Assembly: GCA_036265815.1 (NCBI GenBank)
Contig: DATAOI010000074.1
Location: 1-61,982 of the forward strand
Source: Gemmatimonadales bacterium
GTDB lineage: Bacteria > Gemmatimonadota > Gemmatimonadetes > Gemmatimonadales > GWC2-71-9
DNA length: 61,982 nucleotides
Reading direction: 5' to 3'
Shown: positions 29,514 to 39,137 of the stretch, piece after piece
How positions within the stretch are numbered: the stretch's first letter is position 1
Layout of the letters: every line of letters starts with the position of its first letter
The notes under the pieces: generated by a model
What the model saw: the letters and a program-made list of their open reading frames with translations, nothing else
The model's database searches: none
What the model was told of the DNA's origin: nothing
Position numbers and translations under genes: made by a program

Positions 29514-30689
29514 ATGCGTGTGCTGTTGCTCGACTACGACTGCCCTCCGCGCCCGAGCGGCGCCGGCGCCATCAGTGAGGCGCTGGCGCGGGGCCTCGCC
29601 TCGCGCGGACTCATGGTGGACGTCGTGACCACCGGTGAGCGCAGCACCACCGAATCCCAGGTCTTGTGGAACGGCGGAGCATCGGAGGAAGGGCTGCTCA
29701 CGGTGCACCGGGTGAAGAGCGGCCCGGGTTACCTGCTTGCGGCGCTGCCGCTGCTCAGGCGGCTGACACGGGGCGCGCCGTACGACCTGGTCCATCTCTT
29801 CTTATCAGCCCCGACCGCGGCACTGCTCCCGCTGCTCAACCTGGGGGATGTACCGGTCATCGTCTCCCTGCATCGGGCGGATGATGTCGGTCCGCGCGGC
29901 CCGACTGAGCGGCTCGCCCGCGTGCTGCTGATCCCCTTTCACCGCTGGACCTGGCGTCGCGCCGACCGGCTGGTGGCGGCCTCCGAGAGCCTGGGGCATC
30001 TGGCGCTTCGCGGCTCGGCCAACCTGCGCTACTCGGTGGTGCAGGGCGGTGTCGATCTGGCCCGCTTCCATCCGGTGCGGACCTTTCGGCGGAGCCGCTC
30101 GACCCGGATCCGTTGTCTCGCCGTCGCCGGGCTCTCAGCGCACGGCGGGGTGGCCGATCTGCTTCACGCGCTGGCGCTGCTGGAACGGGATCGCTTCGAG
30201 CTCGAGATCGTGGGGACGGGCCCCGAGGAATCGAGGCTTCGTGCACTGGCGGCGAAGCTCGGCGTCGCCCAGGAGGTCATTTTCCGCGCCCCGGTCGGCT
30301 CGGCCGACCTGGCGGAGCGGTACCGGGCGGCGGACCTCTTCACCGTGGCGCCTGCGGCGGAGTTCACCGGCAGCGGCTTCGCAGAGGCGCTCGCTTCGGG
30401 TCTGCCGATCGTGGGGAGCTCGGTGGGTGCCATTCCGGAGCTGGTGGAGCACGGCAGCAACGGGCTGCTGGTCCGCCCCGGGGACGTCCGGGCGATTGCC
30501 GACGCGATCGCGCGTCTGGCCGCCGATCTGCAGCTGCGGCGCGAGATGGGTCGGCGCAATCGGCTCAAGGCCAAGGCCACCCTGGACTGGAGCCGAATCA
30601 CCGAGCGATGGCTCTCGCTCTACGCGGGGGTGCAGCGTCGCCGGCTGGCCCCCGCCCGGCCCGCGGAGATTCCCTCCGGGACCTGGTGA
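29514..30689 (+). CDS. GT4-family glycosyltransferase
   Basis: The 391-residue protein has a GT-B fold: MRVLLLDYDCPPRPSGAGAISEALARGL at the N-terminus, the linker VVQGGVDLARFHPV, and the donor-binding region EFTGSGFAEALASGLPIVGS with the E-x7-E-like pair. It should transfer a sugar from a nucleotide donor to a lipid or glycan acceptor in envelope or exopolysaccharide assembly. No other polysaccharide gene is adjacent. I chose ATG 29514 because the 43 residues encoded upstream do not fit the family. Confidence 0.9.
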   Translation: MRVLLLDYDCPPRPSGAGAISEALARGLASRGLMVDVVTTGERSTTESQVLWNGGASEEGLLTVHRVKSGPGYLLAALPLLRRLTRGAPYDLVHLFLSAPTAALLPLLNLGDVPVIVSLHRADDVGPRGPTERLARVLLIPFHRWTWRRADRLVAASESLGHLALRGSANLRYSVVQGGVDLARFHPVRTFRRSRSTRIRCLAVAGLSAHGGVADLLHALALLERDRFELEIVGTGPEESRLRALAAKLGVAQEVIFRAPVGSADLAERYRAADLFTVAPAAEFTGSGFAEALASGLPIVGSSVGAIPELVEHGSNGLLVRPGDVRAIADAIARLAADLQLRREMGRRNRLKAKATLDWSRITERWLSLYAGVQRRRLAPARPAEIPSGTW

Positions 30690-30714: not shown

Positions 30715-30742
30715 TTGACAGTCCGCGCGGGCGGCCTGTAAG
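30715..30742 (+). promoter_or_regulatory. Strong sigma70-like promoter for the sulfurtransferase leader
   Basis: TTGACA at 30715-30720 is a perfect -35 element. After 16 bases, TGTAAG at 30737-30742 matches the -10 consensus at four of six positions. The predicted start of transcription is about 30749-30751, which coincides with the ATG of a short leader reading frame. The promoter lies 25 bases beyond the glycosyltransferase stop. Confidence 0.65.
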
Positions 30743-30750
30743 TTTTCCCC

Positions 30751-30825
30751 ATGCCTCGCCACCTGTGTACGCGGTCCATGCCGCGCATCCGCGGCTGTAC
30801 CGTCCGGTCCCGCACCGGAGGGTAG
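30751..30825 (+). CDS. Predicted leaderless 24-residue peptide with two Cys codons (attenuator peptide)
   Basis: ATG 30751 opens a 25-codon frame ending in TAG at 30823-30825. The peptide begins [16 protein letters not shown] and has TGT cysteine codons at positions 6 and 16 and seven arginines. The ATG lies at the predicted transcription start, so translation would be leaderless. Arg/Cys-rich leaderless peptides upstream of sulfur-metabolism operons are known in mycobacteria as cysteine-responsive attenuators, and putative leader peptides before actinobacterial sulfurtransferases start with similar MxRxL residues, from memory. Here the peptide is followed by complementary segments and a terminator, then a sulfurtransferase. 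That it is translated is inferred. Confidence 0.6.
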
Positions 30826-30870
30826 GCGCCGGCCTCACGCTGGAATCGCGCATCATCGAGTCTGGCCGGC
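30803..30870 (+). promoter_or_regulatory. Predicted leader hairpins and antiterminator pairing
   Basis: TCCGGT (30803-30808) pairs with ACCGGA (30814-30819) within the peptide frame. Just past its stop, GCCGGCC (30828-30834) is complementary to GGCCGGC (30864-30870). The latter shares 30867-30870 with the 5' base of the terminator stem, so the two structures exclude one another. A ribosome at the leader stop would cover 30828-30834 and favour termination; one stalled at the Cys codons would leave it free for antitermination. Confidence 0.5.
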
Positions 30871-30900
30871 CGCACTCCCTTCCGGGTGTGCGGCCGTTTT
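30867..30900 (+). terminator. Intrinsic terminator inside the sulfurtransferase leader
   Basis: A nine-base GC-rich stem (CGGCCGCAC at 30867-30875 with GTGCGGCCG at 30888-30896), one T-T mismatch, three more pairs and a TTCC loop are followed directly by TTTT at 30897-30900. It ends 16 bases before the gene start, with the AAGGAG site in between, so it can only serve as a conditional attenuator. The T-tract is short, so termination may be partial. Confidence 0.7.
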
Positions 30901-30916
30901 GCTCAAGGAGAAGATC

Positions 30917-31810
30917 ATGGCCACAGCACAGGCGGCGCCGCCGGTCACGCCGATCGAGCAGCGCGGCTACGCCCATCCCGAGGTCCTGGTGTCGGCCGAC
31001 TGGGTCGCGGCCCATCTCACCGACCCCAAAGTGCGTCTGGTGGAGTCGAACGAGGACATCCTGCTCTACGACACCGGTCACATTCCCGGAGCGGTGAAGA
31101 TCGACTGGACCACCGATCTCAACGATCCGGTCGTGCGCGACTACGTCGACCGCGACCGGCTCCAGAAGCTGCTCCGCTCCAAAGGGATCAACAACGACAC
31201 GACGATCGTCTTTTACGGCGACAAGAACAACTGGTGGGCCACCTACGCGCTGTGGGTGCTGCAGCTCTTCGGGGTGACCAACGTGAAGATCCTGGACGGC
31301 GGCCGGCTCCGCTGGGTGGACGAGGGGCGCAAGCTCACCACCGACGCTCCCAAGTATCCCGAGGGGAACATCACCATCGGCGAGCGGAGTGACAGCCGGA
31401 TCCGTGCCTTCCGGGACGAGGTGCTGCAGCACCTCAAGAGCAAGGGCCAACTGGTCGACGTGCGGAGCCCGGAGGAGTACCGGGGCGAGAAGACCCACAT
31501 GCCCGAGTATCCCCAGGAAGGCTGCCTGCGCGGGGGCCACATTCCGGGGGCCAAGAGCATTCCATGGGCAAAGGCGGTCGATCCGGAGACCCACGCCTTC
31601 CGCTCGGCAAGCGAGCTCAAGAAGCTCTATGAAGAGGACAACGGCCTCAAGAAGGACCAGGAGACGATCGCCTACTGCCGGATCGGCGAGCGCTCGTCGC
31701 ACACCTGGTTCGCGCTCACCTATCTGTTGGGGTTCGACAAGGTGCGCAACTACGACGGATCGTGGACCGAGTGGGGGAACGCGGTGCGGCTGCCGGTGGA
31801 GAAGCCGTAG
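30917..31810 (+). CDS. Two-domain thiosulfate/3-mercaptopyruvate sulfurtransferase (rhodanese)
   Basis: The 297-residue protein has two rhodanese domains. The N-terminal domain ([19 protein letters not shown]) is structural and the C-terminal one carries the catalytic C254 in the loop CRIGERS. The CRxGxR type of loop, with [17 protein letters not shown] upstream, resembles CysA/SseA-type thiosulfate sulfurtransferases. It moves sulfane sulfur from thiosulfate to acceptors such as cyanide or thiols, in the cytoplasm. ATG 30917 follows AAGGAG by six bases. Expression is probably set by the attenuator-like leader upstream. Confidence 0.94.
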
Positions 31811-32186
31811 CGACGGCCGCGCTCGATCGGTAAGGTGCGGCCGGCCCCGTTGAGCAGCGTGGGCCGGCTGTCTGTTATCGCCCGCACCTCGGCCACAGCG
31901 CGACGCCGTGCATTCATGTTGTGGTCTCGTTACCGCTGCCGGATCGGTGCTACACCAGCGTCACCCCGCTAGCTCTCGGCCCTGCACGTAGATGCAACGC
32001 CTGAAACAATTGGCATCACCCGTGCATTAGTCCCCACCGCTCAATCTCTAATCAACGCTCGACACGCGGTCCGTTCCCCGGGCAGGGGAGCGCCGCGTCG
32101 CACTGCCCGCAAGGCGTAGCCGGAGGCACGCTCGGCCCCCGCGCCCGCCCTGAGGGCGTCCTCGTCCGTCACTCAGGAGAATGGTC
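31811..32186. other. Intergenic stretch after the sulfurtransferase gene
   Basis: This 376-base gap holds a terminator-like hairpin near its start and an AGGAG site at its end for the next gene. I see no other reading frame of protein-like composition, tRNA or repeat. A promoter for the downstream lipoprotein must lie here, but no element stands out clearly. Confidence 0.5.
31840..31868 (+). terminator. Terminator-like hairpin after the sulfurtransferase gene
   Basis: GCCGGCCC (31840-31847) and GGGCCGGC (31861-31868) form a perfect eight-base stem with a 13-base loop, 30 bases past the stop codon. A run of T is not present (TGTCTGTTAT follows), so efficiency is uncertain. Confidence 0.5.
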
Positions 32187-32498: not shown

Positions 32499-35400
32499 AT
32501 GTCCAAAATCACCCGTGCCTGGGTTGCGGCACTCGCGCTCGCCGCTGGCCTCAGCCTTCCAGCATCGCTGGCCGCCCAGAAAGCGCTGGTCTATTGCCCG
32601 GTCTCGATCGATGCCGCCGGCTGCGGCGCGATCGTCGCCGCGCTTGGCGCCGACACGACCCTCTTTCCGGGCGGCATCGACGGCGCCTATGACGGTACTC
32701 AGGGCACGATGGATCTGGCGACGGTCGATCTCGCGGGCTACGCCGTCCTCCTGGTGCCGTCGCTGGCGGATGGCGCGGGCACCACACCCTACGCCCTGCT
32801 GCGCGATCCGACGATCGCCGCACGGATCAAGCAGGCGTTCATGGGGCGGGTGGCGGTCTGGTCGGGAACGCCGGACGTGGGCTCGACCAACCGGACGGCC
32901 AAGGACAACCTGATCCGGAATCTGGCGCGATGGGTGCGGCCCGACTCGGCGGGGAGCCATGGGCCGGGCGTCGTGGTGCTGCAAGACAACTCGGATGAGA
33001 TGTCGTTGAGGTATGGCTGGCTGGGCGCTATCTCCAGCGCATCGGTGGCCGCGGACAGCACGTTTACAGTCTACTCGAACGTCCAAGTACTCACGCAGGC
33101 GGGTTCGGCCATCCTGACCAGCGGGGGCGTGCAGATCGGTTACACCAACATGGCGACGTTTGCGCTCCTGCCCGCCGCCGGCACCAGCTCCGACGCGACC
33201 GGTGGCCGCACCAGCGCGGTCGTGCTCGCGACGATAGCCGGCGAGCCCAGCGATCCGAACATCGCCACGGTGCAGACCGACCGGGAAGACTACTTCCCCC
33301 CCGACACCGTGATCGTGACTGGCGCGGGATGGGAGCCCGGTGAGACGGTGCGGCTGGTGATCCAGGAAGACGCGAGTCCGTCGGTTCACCCCGAAGTCAG
33401 CCTGACCACCGTGGCCGATGACGCGGGGCACATTCTCGACCAGCAGTTCGCCATTGATTCGGCCGCCATCGGTGTTCGCTTCACGCTGACCGCCACCGGC
33501 CAGACGTCCGGCCGGACCGCGCAGGCGACGTTCACGGACAACACCGGGCTCAACAGCGTCACCATCCTAGGAACCCAGAGCCCGACCCCGCTCAACCCGC
33601 CAGGCTCGGCCACCTACGGGACCGTCGCCTCGAACTCGGTGCAGGTCCGATTCAACGGCAACGGGAGCTGCACGGTGGCGCTCTCGGTCTCAGGGCTCCC
33701 GTCAGGTGCCAGCTCGACGCTCGTGCCCAGCACCCTGACGGGTACCTCCAGCGGCAATCAGTTCAGCCTGTTGACCGTGAACACCACGGGAGCGGTTGCG
33801 ACCGGCACCAGCACGATCGTCGTGCGAGCCACTGGCACGGGCGGCAGCGGCAACGACTGCTCGACCAGCATCACCCAGACCGCCACGACGACCCTGGTGG
33901 TGAAGCGGGCGAGCACCACGACCGTGAGCGGCCCCGCGAGCTCCACCTTCGGCGCGTCGGTCACCTTCACAGCCACGGTGGCGGGCGGGCCCAGCCCTAC
34001 CGGCACGGTGCAGTTCAAAGATGGTGGGGTCAACCTGGGTGCTCCGCAGACCATTTCGGGTGGTACCGCCTCGGTGAGTACCTCCACGCTGACGGGCGGT
34101 GCCCACACCATCACGGCGGTCTATTCCGGCGACGCCAACTTCGACGTGAGCACCTCCCCGAACTTCAGCCACACGGTGGATCCGGCGAGTACGACCACCG
34201 TACTGTCGTCCTCGGTGAACCCGTCCAATTTCGGGCAGTCGATCTCGCTGAGCGCCTCGGTGAGCGGTCCGGCGGGAACCGGGACGCCGACCGGCTCCAT
34301 CCAGTTCAAGATCGACGGCTCGAACTTCGGCTCGCCGGTTACGCTGTCCGCTGGTGTGGCCGCCAGCGGCAGCACCAATTCGCTTGCGGTGGGCGCCCAT
34401 CCAGTGGCCGCCGTGTACACCCCCGACGCGCCATCGGCTCCCAAGTTCGCGAGCAGTACCAGCACGGTCATCGCGACCCAGACCGTGAACCAGGCCCTCT
34501 CCACCACGACGCTGACCTCCTCGGTCAACCCGTCGGTGTTCGGCCAGTCCATCACGCTTACCGCTACCGTGAAGAACGGCGCTACGCCCATCACGGTTGG
34601 CAGCATCAGCTTCATCGAGGGTGGCACCTGCACCACGCCTGGCACCAGCCTCCAGAGCAACCAGACGCCGAGCGCGGCTGGAGTGGTCACCTACACGGCC
34701 AACAATTTGTCAGTGGCAGCTCATAGCGTCCTCGCTTGCTACGACGGCAGCGGTTCGTTCGGCCCCAGCGAGGCCAGCTTCACCCAGACGGTCAACAAGG
34801 CCGCGACCAGCACGACGATCACCTCCGACACGCCCGATCCATCGGATGCCGGGCAGCCGGTCGCGGTCAACTTCGCCGTGACGGCCAGCCCGCCGGGCAG
34901 CGGGACGCCAGGCGGGAACGTGACGGTAAGCGCGAGCGGCGGGACGGAAACGTGCACCGGCACGGTGGCGGCCGGCACCTGCTCGATCACGCTCACCGGG
35001 AGCGGCCCGCGCACGTTGACTGCCGCCTACGCGGGCGATGCTAGCTTCGCGGCCAGCACCAGCGCCACGGCGGCGCACACGGTGAGGGCCCCGGCCACGG
35101 TGCTCACGGTGGCTCCGGCCTCCGGCATCTACGGTGCAACGGCCGCGCTGTCGGCTACGCTGACCTCGGGCGGCAATCCAGTGCCGGGCAAGTCGATCGG
35201 CTTCAGCCTGAACGGCTCGAGCGCGGGCTCCGCGACCACCAACGCCTCGGGCGTGGCCTCTATCGCGGCCGCGAGCCTCGCCGCGATCGACGCTGGCGTC
35301 TATTCCACCGGCGTGGCCGCCAGCTTCGCGGGAGACGCCGGCTTCACGGCCTCGAACGGGACCAATACGCTCACCGTGAGCACTGCGACCGTGACTCCGG

Positions 35401-38400
35401 TCATTACGGTCAGCAACAAGGCCTACGACGGCACCACCACGGCCACGATCGTCACCCGGAGCCTGACCGGCGTGGTGGGCACCGATGACGTCACTCTCAC
35501 GGGCGGGTCGGCAACTTTCGATAGCAAGACGGCCGGCAACGGCAAGACTGTCAGCGGAACCGGCTTCACGCTGGCGGGAACGGACGCCAGCAACTACGTG
35601 CTCTCCGCGACGTTCGCCATCACCACTGCGGATATCACCCCGCTGACGCTGACGGGTCATGTGACCGCCAACGACAAGGGCTATGATGGGACCACGGCAG
35701 CGGTCCTCGCGACTCGTACCCTCACGGGCGTGCTGCCAGGCGACGCAGTCACCCTCACGGGCGGCAACGCCACGTTCGATACCAAAGACATCGGGACGGG
35801 GAAGACGGTGACGGCAACCACCCTCGTTCTGTCCGGGGCCGACGCCGGGAACTACGTCCTCGCGTCCACGACCGTCACTACCACGGCTGACATCACCAGC
35901 GCCACGGTGACCGGCCACTTCACGGTCAGCGACAAGCTCTACGATGGCACGACGAGCGCTACCATCCTCACCCGCACCCTCACGGGGGTGGTGAGCGGCG
36001 AGGCCGTGTCACTCACCGGCGGCAGCGCCAGCTTCGGCAGCAAGAGCGTGGGCACTGGTAAGACCGTCACCGGAACCGGCTTCAGCCTGGCCGGTGCGGC
36101 TGCCGGGAACTACCTGCTGGCATCCAGTACGCTCACTACGACGGCCGGCATCACGCCTGCCACCGTGGCCGGGCACATCACCGCGAACGACAAAGTCTAC
36201 GACGGGACGGACCAGGCCACTCTGGCCACCCGCACGCTGACCGGCGTCATCGGGACCGACAACGTGTCGCTGACCGGCGGGACACCAACGTTCTCGGACA
36301 AGCAGGTGGGCTCTGGAAAAACGGTGACCGCGACGAGCCTGGGGCTCTCGGGTGGGGACGCAGGCAATTACGTCCTTGCCTCCTCGACGCTCACCACGAC
36401 CGCCGACATCACGGTGCGCACGCTCACAGCCACGGCCACGGCGCAGGACAAGGTTTACGACGGCACCGCGGCCGCGACCGTGACGCTGGGCGACGATCGG
36501 GTAGTCGGCGACGCGCTCACGCTCGGCTCTGGCACCCCCACCTTTGACGACAGGAACGTCGGTACGGGGAAGACCATCACCGTCTCGGGACTGACCCTGA
36601 GCGGCACCGACGCCGGAAACTATGTCCTGGCCTCGACGACCGTGGCCACCACGGCCGACATCATGCCGGCCACGGTGACCGGCCACTTCACGGCGGCCAG
36701 CAAGGTCTACAACGGCAGCCCGGCGGCGGCCATCGCGACCCGCACGCTCACCGGGGTGATCGGAACTGACGACGTGAGCCTGAGCGGCGGCAGCTCGAGC
36801 TTCGCCAACAAGCACGTGGGCGTGGGCAAGACGGTGGCCGGGACCGGCTTCAGCCTGGCCGGGACCGACGCCGGAAACTACGAGCTGGCCTCCAGCACAC
36901 TGACCGCCTCGGCCGACATTACTGCACGCACCCTCGCGGTGACCGCAACGGGGCATGATAAGGTCTACGACGCGACCACCGCGGCCACCGTCACGCTGCA
37001 AGATGATCGTGTAGCGGGTGACGTCTTCTCGGTTACCTATGGCAGCGCGACGTTCGTCAACAAGCAGGTCGGGAACGGCAAGCCGGTGAGCGTCATCGGC
37101 ATCGCGATCGGCAGCGGCGCGGACGCCGGCGATTATCAGCTCGGCAACACGACCACCGCCGCTGCGGCCGACATCACTCCGGCCTCCCTGGCGCCGCACA
37201 TCACGGCCAGCGACAAGGTGTATGACGGGACCAGCGCGGCGACCATCGCGACGCGAAGCCTCACCGGCATCCTGGCCAGTGACGTCGTGACGCTGACCGG
37301 TGGTGCGGCCAGCTTCGGGGACAAGAACGTCGGAACTGGCAAGAACGTGACGGGAACCGGTTTCACTCTGGCCAGCGCCGACGCGGGCAACTACGTCCTC
37401 GATCCGACGAGCGCCACAACTAGCGCCGACATCACGACGCGGCCGCTTGTGGCGACGGCGACCGGGCATGATCGGGTGTATGACGCCACCACCGCGGCTA
37501 CGGTCACGCTGGGTGACAACCGGGTCGCCGGCGACGACATCACGCTGAGCTACAGCAGCGCGAACTTCGATACCAAGAACGTGGGGAACGGGAAGCCGGT
37601 GAGCGTGAGTGGCATCGGGATCAGCGGGGCCGACGCCGGCAACTATGACCCGACCAACAGCACCGCTTCGACCACGGCGAGCATCACCCAGGCGGCCCTC
37701 GCGCCGCATATCACCGCGAGCGACAAGGTCTACGACGGCACCCCCGTCGCGGCGATCCTCACCCGCAGCCTCACCGGTGTGCTGCTGAGCGATGACGTGA
37801 GCCTGAGCGACGGCACGGCCAGCTTCGCGGACAAGAACGTCGGCACGACCAAGAGCGTGACGGCCAGCGGATTCGGCCTCTCGGGCGGCGACGCGGGCAA
37901 CTACGCGCTGGTCCCGGCAACGGCCACGACGACCGCCTCCATCAGCCAGCGGCCGATCGCGGTGGCGGCCGACGCCAAGACCAAGGTTTACGGGAATGCC
38001 GATCCGTCGCTCACCTATCATCTCACCAGCGGCTCGCTGGTCGGCGGCGATGCCTTCACCGGCGGCCTGTTCCGCCTGGCGGGTGAGACTGTCCCGGGTA
38101 GTCCGTATGCCATCAACCAGGGCACGCTGACGGCCGGCGGGAACTACGCGCTCGCCTTCACTCCAGCGAGCCTGGCGATCACTCAGGCCACGCTCACGGT
38201 GACGGCGAACAGCACCAGCAAGACGTTCGGGAATGCCGTCCCGGCCCCCCTGACCGGCAGCATCGTGGGCGTCAAGTTCAGCGATAACATCTCGGCGACG
38301 TACACCGCGTACATCGCGACCGGCGGGCTGGCCCTGGTGACGCCGACAACCGGAGTGTCCGGAAGCCCGTACCCGATTATTCCCGAGGTCTCGGGCTCGC

Positions 38401-39137
38401 CCAGCGGCGTGCTGAGCAATTACGAGGTGGTGCTGGTCAACGGGGGATTGACGGTGCAGAAGGCCACGCCTTCGTTCAACAGTCTGGCAATCCCGAACGT
38501 GGTCGTGGGCCAGGGCTCGAGCACCGTGAGCGGCAACCTCAAGTACCTGGGAACGGCCGCGACGGTATTCCCCTCGGGCGCGGCGTCCATCACGGTCAAT
38601 GGCCAGACCCAGCCGGCCACGATCCAGGCGAGCGGGAACTTCACCGCCACGTTCACTACGTCGGCGTTCCCGCCGAGCGGGACCGGTCTGACCGTCGCGC
38701 TCTCCTACAATGGGAGCGACCCGAACTTCACGACGGCGAGCGGTGCGGGGGCAATGAAGGTGCTCTACAACGTGGCGGCCGGACACTCGTTCCTGCAACC
38801 GATCAATCCGAACCTGACGACCGGTAACCGGAGCAGCTTCAAGATCGGCTCGACCATCCCGACCAAGTTCCAGCTCTTCAAGGCGGACGGCACTACGCCG
38901 ATCACCAGCGCCGTCGCGACCATCGCGGTGGTGAAGCTCGACAATACGGCCGAGACGCCAATCAACGAGGACTTGATCACCTCGCCGGCGGACGACGGGA
39001 TCAATTTCCGGCCGTCGTCGGGGCAGTTCATCTTCAATCTCAGCACCAAGAACTGGACGGCGGGTACTTACCGGATCATCGCGAATCTCGACGATGGCAG
39101 TCAGATCACGGCCGAGGTGGACGGTAGGTCGAAGTAG
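32499..39137 (+). CDS. Giant secreted Ig-like/YDG/MBG repeat surface protein
   Basis: The 2212-residue protein has a signal peptide ending SLAAQ (about residue 27). Residues about 28-250 form an alpha/beta domain (ALVYCPVSIDAAGCGAIVAAL) of unknown role. After a linker come about five bacterial Ig-like domains (about 460-960), with the VQFKDGG and AVYSGDANF signatures. Ten YDG repeats of about 85 residues follow (about 965-1818), then two MBG-like domains (about 1820-1990) and a C-terminal PxKF-type module (about 2090-2212; IPTKFQLFKADG). The composition is Thr/Ser/Ala/Gly-rich. It is probably an adhesin or biofilm fibre; no catalytic site is recognised. Confidence 0.9.
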   Translation: MSKITRAWVAALALAAGLSLPASLAAQKALVYCPVSIDAAGCGAIVAALGADTTLFPGGIDGAYDGTQGTMDLATVDLAGYAVLLVPSLADGAGTTPYALLRDPTIAARIKQAFMGRVAVWSGTPDVGSTNRTAKDNLIRNLARWVRPDSAGSHGPGVVVLQDNSDEMSLRYGWLGAISSASVAADSTFTVYSNVQVLTQAGSAILTSGGVQIGYTNMATFALLPAAGTSSDATGGRTSAVVLATIAGEPSDPNIATVQTDREDYFPPDTVIVTGAGWEPGETVRLVIQEDASPSVHPEVSLTTVADDAGHILDQQFAIDSAAIGVRFTLTATGQTSGRTAQATFTDNTGLNSVTILGTQSPTPLNPPGSATYGTVASNSVQVRFNGNGSCTVALSVSGLPSGASSTLVPSTLTGTSSGNQFSLLTVNTTGAVATGTSTIVVRATGTGGSGNDCSTSITQTATTTLVVKRASTTTVSGPASSTFGASVTFTATVAGGPSPTGTVQFKDGGVNLGAPQTISGGTASVSTSTLTGGAHTITAVYSGDANFDVSTSPNFSHTVDPASTTTVLSSSVNPSNFGQSISLSASVSGPAGTGTPTGSIQFKIDGSNFGSPVTLSAGVAASGSTNSLAVGAHPVAAVYTPDAPSAPKFASSTSTVIATQTVNQALSTTTLTSSVNPSVFGQSITLTATVKNGATPITVGSISFIEGGTCTTPGTSLQSNQTPSAAGVVTYTANNLSVAAHSVLACYDGSGSFGPSEASFTQTVNKAATSTTITSDTPDPSDAGQPVAVNFAVTASPPGSGTPGGNVTVSASGGTETCTGTVAAGTCSITLTGSGPRTLTAAYAGDASFAASTSATAAHTVRAPATVLTVAPASGIYGATAALSATLTSGGNPVPGKSIGFSLNGSSAGSATTNASGVASIAAASLAAIDAGVYSTGVAASFAGDAGFTASNGTNTLTVSTATVTPVITVSNKAYDGTTTATIVTRSLTGVVGTDDVTLTGGSATFDSKTAGNGKTVSGTGFTLAGTDASNYVLSATFAITTADITPLTLTGHVTANDKGYDGTTAAVLATRTLTGVLPGDAVTLTGGNATFDTKDIGTGKTVTATTLVLSGADAGNYVLASTTVTTTADITSATVTGHFTVSDKLYDGTTSATILTRTLTGVVSGEAVSLTGGSASFGSKSVGTGKTVTGTGFSLAGAAAGNYLLASSTLTTTAGITPATVAGHITANDKVYDGTDQATLATRTLTGVIGTDNVSLTGGTPTFSDKQVGSGKTVTATSLGLSGGDAGNYVLASSTLTTTADITVRTLTATATAQDKVYDGTAAATVTLGDDRVVGDALTLGSGTPTFDDRNVGTGKTITVSGLTLSGTDAGNYVLASTTVATTADIMPATVTGHFTAASKVYNGSPAAAIATRTLTGVIGTDDVSLSGGSSSFANKHVGVGKTVAGTGFSLAGTDAGNYELASSTLTASADITARTLAVTATGHDKVYDATTAATVTLQDDRVAGDVFSVTYGSATFVNKQVGNGKPVSVIGIAIGSGADAGDYQLGNTTTAAAADITPASLAPHITASDKVYDGTSAATIATRSLTGILASDVVTLTGGAASFGDKNVGTGKNVTGTGFTLASADAGNYVLDPTSATTSADITTRPLVATATGHDRVYDATTAATVTLGDNRVAGDDITLSYSSANFDTKNVGNGKPVSVSGIGISGADAGNYDPTNSTASTTASITQAALAPHITASDKVYDGTPVAAILTRSLTGVLLSDDVSLSDGTASFADKNVGTTKSVTASGFGLSGGDAGNYALVPATATTTASISQRPIAVAADAKTKVYGNADPSLTYHLTSGSLVGGDAFTGGLFRLAGETVPGSPYAINQGTLTAGGNYALAFTPASLAITQATLTVTANSTSKTFGNAVPAPLTGSIVGVKFSDNISATYTAYIATGGLALVTPTTGVSGSPYPIIPEVSGSPSGVLSNYEVVLVNGGLTVQKATPSFNSLAIPNVVVGQGSSTVSGNLKYLGTAATVFPSGAASITVNGQTQPATIQASGNFTATFTTSAFPPSGTGLTVALSYNGSDPNFTTASGAGAMKVLYNVAAGHSFLQPINPNLTTGNRSSFKIGSTIPTKFQLFKADGTTPITSAVATIAVVKLDNTAETPINEDLITSPADDGINFRPSSGQFIFNLSTKNWTAGTYRIIANLDDGSQITAEVDGRSK
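35391..37956 (+). repeat. Ten tandem YDG repeats inside the giant surface protein
   Basis: Each unit is about 85 codons and contains K-x-Y-D-G-T, then G-x-V or DDRV, a middle G-S-A-x-F-x-x-K-x-V-G-x-G-K motif, and G-x-D-A-G-N-Y near the end. Units 1-4, 6, 8 and 10 share the R-T/S-L-T-G-V/I segment; units 5, 7 and 9 carry a V-T-L-x-D-D/N-R-V version instead, so after unit 4 the two subtypes alternate. DNA identity between units is partial, so the array is old or diversified. Confidence 0.85.

Follow-up and report, generated by a model that had tools for sequence, protein, structure and literature searches.

What decides whether the thiosulfate sulfurtransferase gene at this locus is read? In the window, the whole stretch of 61,982 nucleotides that we analysed, the gene is preceded by a promoter-like sequence, a short open reading frame (ORF) with two Cys codons and a terminator-like hairpin. 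We asked whether these elements form a switch that responds to cysteine. Based on the sequence elements, their recurrence in relatives and modelled folds, a cysteine-sensing leader-peptide transcription attenuator very probably controls the gene.

The source genome (4.6 Mb in 119 contigs) has metagenome-assembled genomes (MAGs) of the Gemmatimonadales as its nearest named relatives. The product of the regulated gene matches Pfam Rhodanese (E 1.6e-37), and its best relatives in the PDB are the rhodanese 1uar, the thiosulfate sulfurtransferase sseA (3hzu) and the putative thiosulfate sulfurtransferase 3aax. Upstream, a glycosyltransferase gene read in the same direction has its stop codon at 30687-30689. 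Further downstream, positions 32499-39137 encode a 2212-residue protein of Ig-like, YDG and MBG repeats (Pfam PF16640, PF18657 and PF18676), which is probably a surface protein; a small lipoprotein-like ORF at 32181 lies 5′ of its gene.

The elements of the leader are collected in Table 1. The promoter TTGACA-N16-TGTAAG lies where the original prediction had placed it, and TAAGTT, with a spacer of 18, is an alternative −10. The relatives favour this second choice, as in the leader of the same genus that reads TTGACA-18-TAAGTT-7-ATG (L006). The leader ATG at 30751 is 6 nt past the −10, and the sequence predicts a transcription start at about 30749-30752, at or no more than 1-2 nt from this ATG. 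We also found the proposed 24-residue ORF with its two TGT codons, and the terminator, the AAGGAG and the gene start at 30917 had all been placed correctly. The pairing that excludes the terminator had been put at 30828-30834 with 30864-30870. These segments, GCCGGCC and GGCCGGC, are complementary, but the predicted pairing is longer, about 30810-30834 with 30864-30886, with a duplex energy of −31.0 kcal/mol. Across seven same-genus leaders, the terminator GCCGRCCGC...GCGGCCG is nearly invariant.

Table 1. Features of the sulfurtransferase gene and its leader (positions in the window)
Feature	Position	Strand	Basis or remark
−35 element TTGACA	30715..30720	+	Sequence; same distance to leader ATG in most relatives
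−10 region, TGTAAG 30737-30742 (spacer 16) or TAAGTT 30739-30744 (spacer 18)	30737..30744	+	Sequence
Leader ORF, 24 codons, predicted leaderless	30751..30825	+	Stop codon 30823-30825; analogous ORFs in relatives
Cys codon 6 (TGT)	30766..30768	+	Stall here keeps P(terminator) 0.97
Cys codon 16 (TGT), predicted control codon	30796..30798	+	27 nt 5′ of stop; stall folding
Antiterminator 5′ strand	~30810..30834	+	End of leader ORF, stop codon and GCCGGCC
Antiterminator 3′ strand	30864..30886	+	Overlaps terminator 5′ arm and loop; duplex energy, fold
Intrinsic terminator	30867..30900	+	Stem CGGCCGCACTCCCTTCCGGGTGTGCGGCCG 30867-30896, −25.0 kcal/mol; T-tract TTTT 30897-30900
Shine-Dalgarno AAGGAG of sulfurtransferase gene	30905..30910	+	Sequence; outside terminator stem
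Regulated gene, thiosulfate sulfurtransferase	30917..31810	+	Two rhodanese domains, active-site loop CRIGERSS

Taken alone, the window is weak evidence. By themselves, two Cys codons among 24 are nothing unusual, nor does the fold of the whole leader stand out (z −1.3). A simple consensus scanner reported neither a promoter nor a terminator at the leader, the leader had no family match in Rfam, and its peptide had no family in NCBIfam or Pfam. The layout appeared in 0 of 2000 dinucleotide shuffles of the 500-nt upstream region. The decisive evidence is comparative.

The mechanism that we infer from the elements, their conservation, the in silico switch and the other loci is as follows. Transcription would begin at the leader ATG or 1-2 nt away from it, and a ribosome would load on the 5′ AUG. 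When Cys-tRNA is plentiful, this ribosome would reach the stop codon and cover 30810-30834; the terminator could then form, and the sulfurtransferase gene would be off. When Cys-tRNA is scarce, the ribosome would pause at Cys codon 16 and leave 30810-30834 free to pair with 30864-30886, which would prevent the terminator and allow the gene to be read.

To see how widely the leader is shared, we compared orthologues across the order. The sulfurtransferase gene was present in 146 of 270 genomes, and 129 upstream regions were of useful length; nearly all of the compared sequences are MAGs. A short Cys-codon ORF followed by a GC-rich terminator was found in 29 of about 130 orthologues, and one further Cys leader came from another Gemmatimonadota MAG (L046). 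Carriers include seven of the eight same-genus orthologues, seven leaders in genus g27, one member of family f3 and, within family f2, all sampled genomes of g70 (five) and g38 (three). The element is absent from one same-genus orthologue (L008) and from about three quarters of the orthologues in the order, which makes it seem, from this distribution, that the attenuator is readily gained or lost.

The leader peptides, for example MSPMMRMQCCCSTGPSTLGRAAAAVR, MIYTICAACPCSMPHLPGKRP, MSFRDRMCCCACTAARRPGRSALAA and MVMMQSRKDQSMCACCRAAHRWPGGSARRRC, cannot be aligned and have their Cys codons in common, in patterns such as CC, CCC and MCACC. The scattered Cys codons of the window are not typical: most relatives and the cysH leader of the same genome (see below) carry CC or CCC. 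Spacing is more regular: the last Cys codon lies 42-51 nt 5′ of the stop codon in 22 of 30 leaders, within a range of 27-54 nt over all. Nearly all leaders have a strong GC stem followed by a T-tract, and in many relatives this stem ends tens of nucleotides 5′ of the start codon. Comparison of orthologous leaders, which had been suggested as a check, thus bore out the Cys codons, the terminator and the excluding pairing; the peptide sequence was not conserved, and covariation was uninformative.

The leader ORFs of most relatives start 6-11 nt past a −10 that is paired with TTGACA. We scored this arrangement with a detector that used geometry only (TTGAC, a start codon 27-35 nt after the hexamer, 18-45 codons and a terminator past the stop). 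The strict leaderless layout with at least two Cys codons was present in 17 of the 129 real upstream regions, compared with 0.06 per dinucleotide-shuffled set. Dropping the Cys requirement added no regions; that is, every short ORF in the strict layout has at least two Cys codons. An earlier, stricter detector that demanded a good −10 picked up only 7 of 129, since the −10 hexamer is weak in many leaders. As judged from promoter geometry, leaderless initiation, part of the original prediction, is common in this set but not obligatory: five of the seven same-genus sulfurtransferase leaders start about 15-35 nt past the predicted −10 and do not look leaderless.

We then folded each leader RNA for two ribosome positions, one paused on the final Cys codon of the cluster and one on the stop codon. 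For the window leader, pausing at Cys codon 16 lowered the probability of the terminator to 0.03 and sequestered its 5′ arm (0.81), whereas a ribosome at the stop codon gave a terminator probability of 0.99. The terminator also persisted when the ribosome stalled at Cys codon 6 (0.97) or when the leader was left untranslated (0.98). These models therefore predict that Cys codon 16 is the sensor, that Cys codon 6 is probably not the main one and that the default state of the leader is off.

Over 30 leaders, the nascent terminator 5′ arm was sequestered at 0.78 with the ribosome stalled at Cys and at 0.31 with the ribosome at the stop codon. This difference exceeded that of dinucleotide-shuffled spacers (Fisher p 2e-9 for the 30 leaders and 5e-6 for 15 representatives). 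The switch was robust to the placement of the ribosome edge between +10 and +16 nt, with a difference >0.2 in 22 to 27 of the 30 leaders. At an edge of +16, the full-length fold of the window leader favours the terminator, yet sequestration of the nascent 5′ arm stays at 0.81. In some leaders, such as L006 and L004, the full-length equilibrium fold favours the terminator even when the ribosome is stalled, and the switch there must therefore be kinetic.

Antiterminator duplexes across the leaders range from about −20 to −39 kcal/mol. Pairings between segments of the same species were stronger than swapped pairings over the whole set, a difference that was not significant within groups (p ~0.1-0.2). 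In family f2, a copy of the terminator 3′ arm, GCGGCCGG, stands at the end of the leader ORF, so that copy and original compete for one 5′ arm. The Gemmatimonadaceae antiterminator alignment showed mostly invariant positions or one-sided changes. Covariation is uninformative here, since the same strand has two pairing partners to satisfy. The modelled folds are supportive of a switch, short of proof.

The element is not confined to sulfurtransferase genes. In the window's own genome, a second Cys leader of leaderless geometry, MSLRCTLVPELASPAATRAGAMACCCMATLHTYGTT (MACCCM), lies about 200 nt upstream of a cysH-type PAPS reductase gene (C24:52675; L271, G000:C24). It reads TTGACA-17-TAACCT-6-ATG, is followed by a terminator and shows the fold switch too. 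This cysH element is found in seven genomes of the genus (the window's own and six others); CCC lies 33 nt before the stop codon in all seven, and the ATG is always 6-7 nt past the −10. As a negative control within the genus, we looked upstream of other genes and found the element in 0 of 24 cysK-family regions and 0 of 9 second-type PF01507 regions.

A covariance model built from the family f2 leaders (R1) gave further strong matches away from the sulfurtransferase; its weaker matches include chance ones inside genes. In the Gemmatimonadaceae, R1 matched before a sulfite reductase gene (leader with GECCTPVCCCMTMC), a PALP enzyme gene of cysK type (leader MTSPRVYTLGRFATPCCCGDACCCARCFRCPTRPEAKIRC), a PAPS reductase gene and three OsmC-like genes (L255, L257 and L270). 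The attenuator before these OsmC-like genes suggests a role for this OsmC family in cysteine or sulfur metabolism. One weak R1 match (L266) consists of a short Cys-containing ORF (MCMGMCRYWHPSGRAGRARARVQR) and a terminator before an uncharacterised gene of ~350 codons, possibly a further member of the regulon. As in the mycobacterial class, the element precedes cysteine or sulfur genes at several loci, the sulfurtransferase and cysH genes in this genome and the others in relatives. For translation-dependent cysteine attenuation as first proposed, the Cys codons, the terminator, the excluding pairing and the sulfur-gene loci all hold up, with the amendment that only Cys codon 16 is placed as a sensor.

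Other readings of the locus can be weighed against this evidence. A stall at Cys could free a masked ribosome-binding site with no transcription termination, as in mycobacteria. The leader shares with that group the gene family (mycobacterial cysA2) and, by its predicted start, the logic of a leaderless Cys ORF, and translation attenuation has been reported for cysteine genes of M. smegmatis (PMC4633059; PMC13236596). We nonetheless regard this reading as unlikely: almost every leader has a strong GC stem and T-tract, in many relatives this stem stops tens of nucleotides short of the start codon, and in the window the Shine-Dalgarno sequence (30905-30910) lies beyond the stem, which ends at 30896. 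It is more improbable still that the terminator just ends transcription of the glycosyltransferase gene and that the short ORF is coincidental. That gene is co-directional and ends ~180 nt 5′ of the terminator, but a promoter lies between the two; moreover, promoter, Cys ORF and terminator recur jointly in many genomes, with a second copy before cysH in the same genome.

SAM riboswitches often govern sulfur genes, and a Kineococcus orthologue of the sulfurtransferase gene has one, so a metabolite riboswitch or T-box might control the terminator while the ORF goes unread. Against this very improbable reading, neither the window nor ten other Gemmatimonadota and Chloroflexota loci had an Rfam match (T-box and SAM riboswitch included), and there is no conserved aptamer-like core, with the Cys codons and switch segments alone being kept. 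Least probable of all, to the point of being negligible, is that the small peptide itself acts, for instance by binding a metal or a thiol. Such a role would fit the Cys-rich motifs of relatives, MCACC for example, but the peptides are unrelated except for Cys, the Cys-to-stop and terminator spacing is constrained, and fold switching depends on the position of the ribosome. We therefore retain transcription attenuation by translation of the leader as the preferred reading.

Reading by eye, we found similar leaders beyond the Gemmatimonadota. In Anaerolineae (Chloroflexota), several orthologues have leaderless-looking Cys ORFs 5′ of the sulfurtransferase gene. One leader, MMTMPLYPPAVCCPTCCCTQRFMLPARGGMSVI, reads TTGACA-18-TATATT-7-ATG, followed by a terminator-like hairpin and a T-tract; MMNKTQAFYTNQRCICIRRGR and MTDFASRQACWCCRRERSPR are others. 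Chloroflexota Cys leaders before sulfurtransferase genes, mostly from Anaerolineae and many of them leaderless, include L045/L233, L228, L229, L216, L221, L238, L041, L073 and L079. Several Chloroflexota leaders share RCICIRRGR, followed by the long-range complementary segments GGGGGCGTTAGCC and GGCTAACGCTCCCGC and a terminator. In the Kineococcus orthologue (L107:2054-2145), a Cys leader ORF (with RRRRHIDLCRSVTTACPR) comes directly after a SAM riboswitch (Rfam RF00162) and upstream of the sulfurtransferase gene, apparently two sulfur sensors in series.

On balance, we lean towards the view that Gemmatimonadota and Anaerolineae run a multi-locus cysteine regulon through leaderless Cys leader peptides and intrinsic terminators. 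Counting the mycobacteria, three phyla would control the sulfurtransferase family through Cys codons in leaderless ORFs, with two output mechanisms. If so, initiation at a 5′ AUG would be a recurrent part of a cysteine sensor. The element would also offer a direct, sequence-based route to cysteine-regulated genes in phyla that are hard to culture. At this locus, it is predicted to tie the sulfurtransferase to the cysteine supply, with leaderless initiation feeding a transcription terminator and not a Shine-Dalgarno switch.

Leader-peptide attenuation has long been known chiefly from Proteobacteria and Actinobacteria. According to a 2010 survey, none had been shown elsewhere before the Firmicutes case described there (PMC2965389). 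Our literature search found no report for Gemmatimonadota, nor any of cysteine attenuators with terminators. The arrangement, first claimed as new outside actinobacteria, also occurs beyond the window's group, and Anaerolineae have analogous leaders.

Among known systems, the trp, his and ilv attenuators likewise place control codons in a short ORF and let ribosome position choose between an antiterminator and a terminator that exclude each other. The window leader has the short Cys-codon ORF, the intermediate terminator and, in silico, the exclusive antiterminator of this class; its Cys codons are only two and stand apart (6 and 16), fewer than in most relatives and without a contiguous run. 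The Gemmatimonadota element differs from these attenuators in sensing cysteine, in its mostly leaderless ORF without a Shine-Dalgarno sequence and in the antiterminator strand at the end of the ORF. Actinobacterial cys operons also have Cys-codon leader peptides, but a survey of them reported no conserved terminator hairpins (Seliverstov et al., 2005; PMC1262725). Upstream of mycobacterial cysA2, a sulfurtransferase gene, lies a leaderless ORF that contains a Cys cluster (PMC4633059), and leaderless polycysteine ORFs are cysteine-responsive according to Canestrari et al. (2020), as cited in PMC9031893. The mechanism there is described as translation attenuation by unmasking of the Shine-Dalgarno sequence (PMC13236596). 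Our element resembles these polycysteine attenuators in its short Cys ORF, which promoter geometry predicts to be leaderless in the window and at cysH, in the cysteine-metabolism genes that it precedes, including the same sulfurtransferase family, and in occupying several loci per genome. It differs in its phylum, in its unrelated peptides and in having an intrinsic terminator with an antiterminator, where the mycobacterial leaders reportedly unmask a Shine-Dalgarno sequence without terminators. Since no such masking is seen here, we set the element outside the mycobacterial class. We class it as a form of leader-peptide attenuation that combines a mycobacterial-like sensor with a trp-like output, and this predicted coupling of leaderless cysteine sensing to an intrinsic terminator is new.
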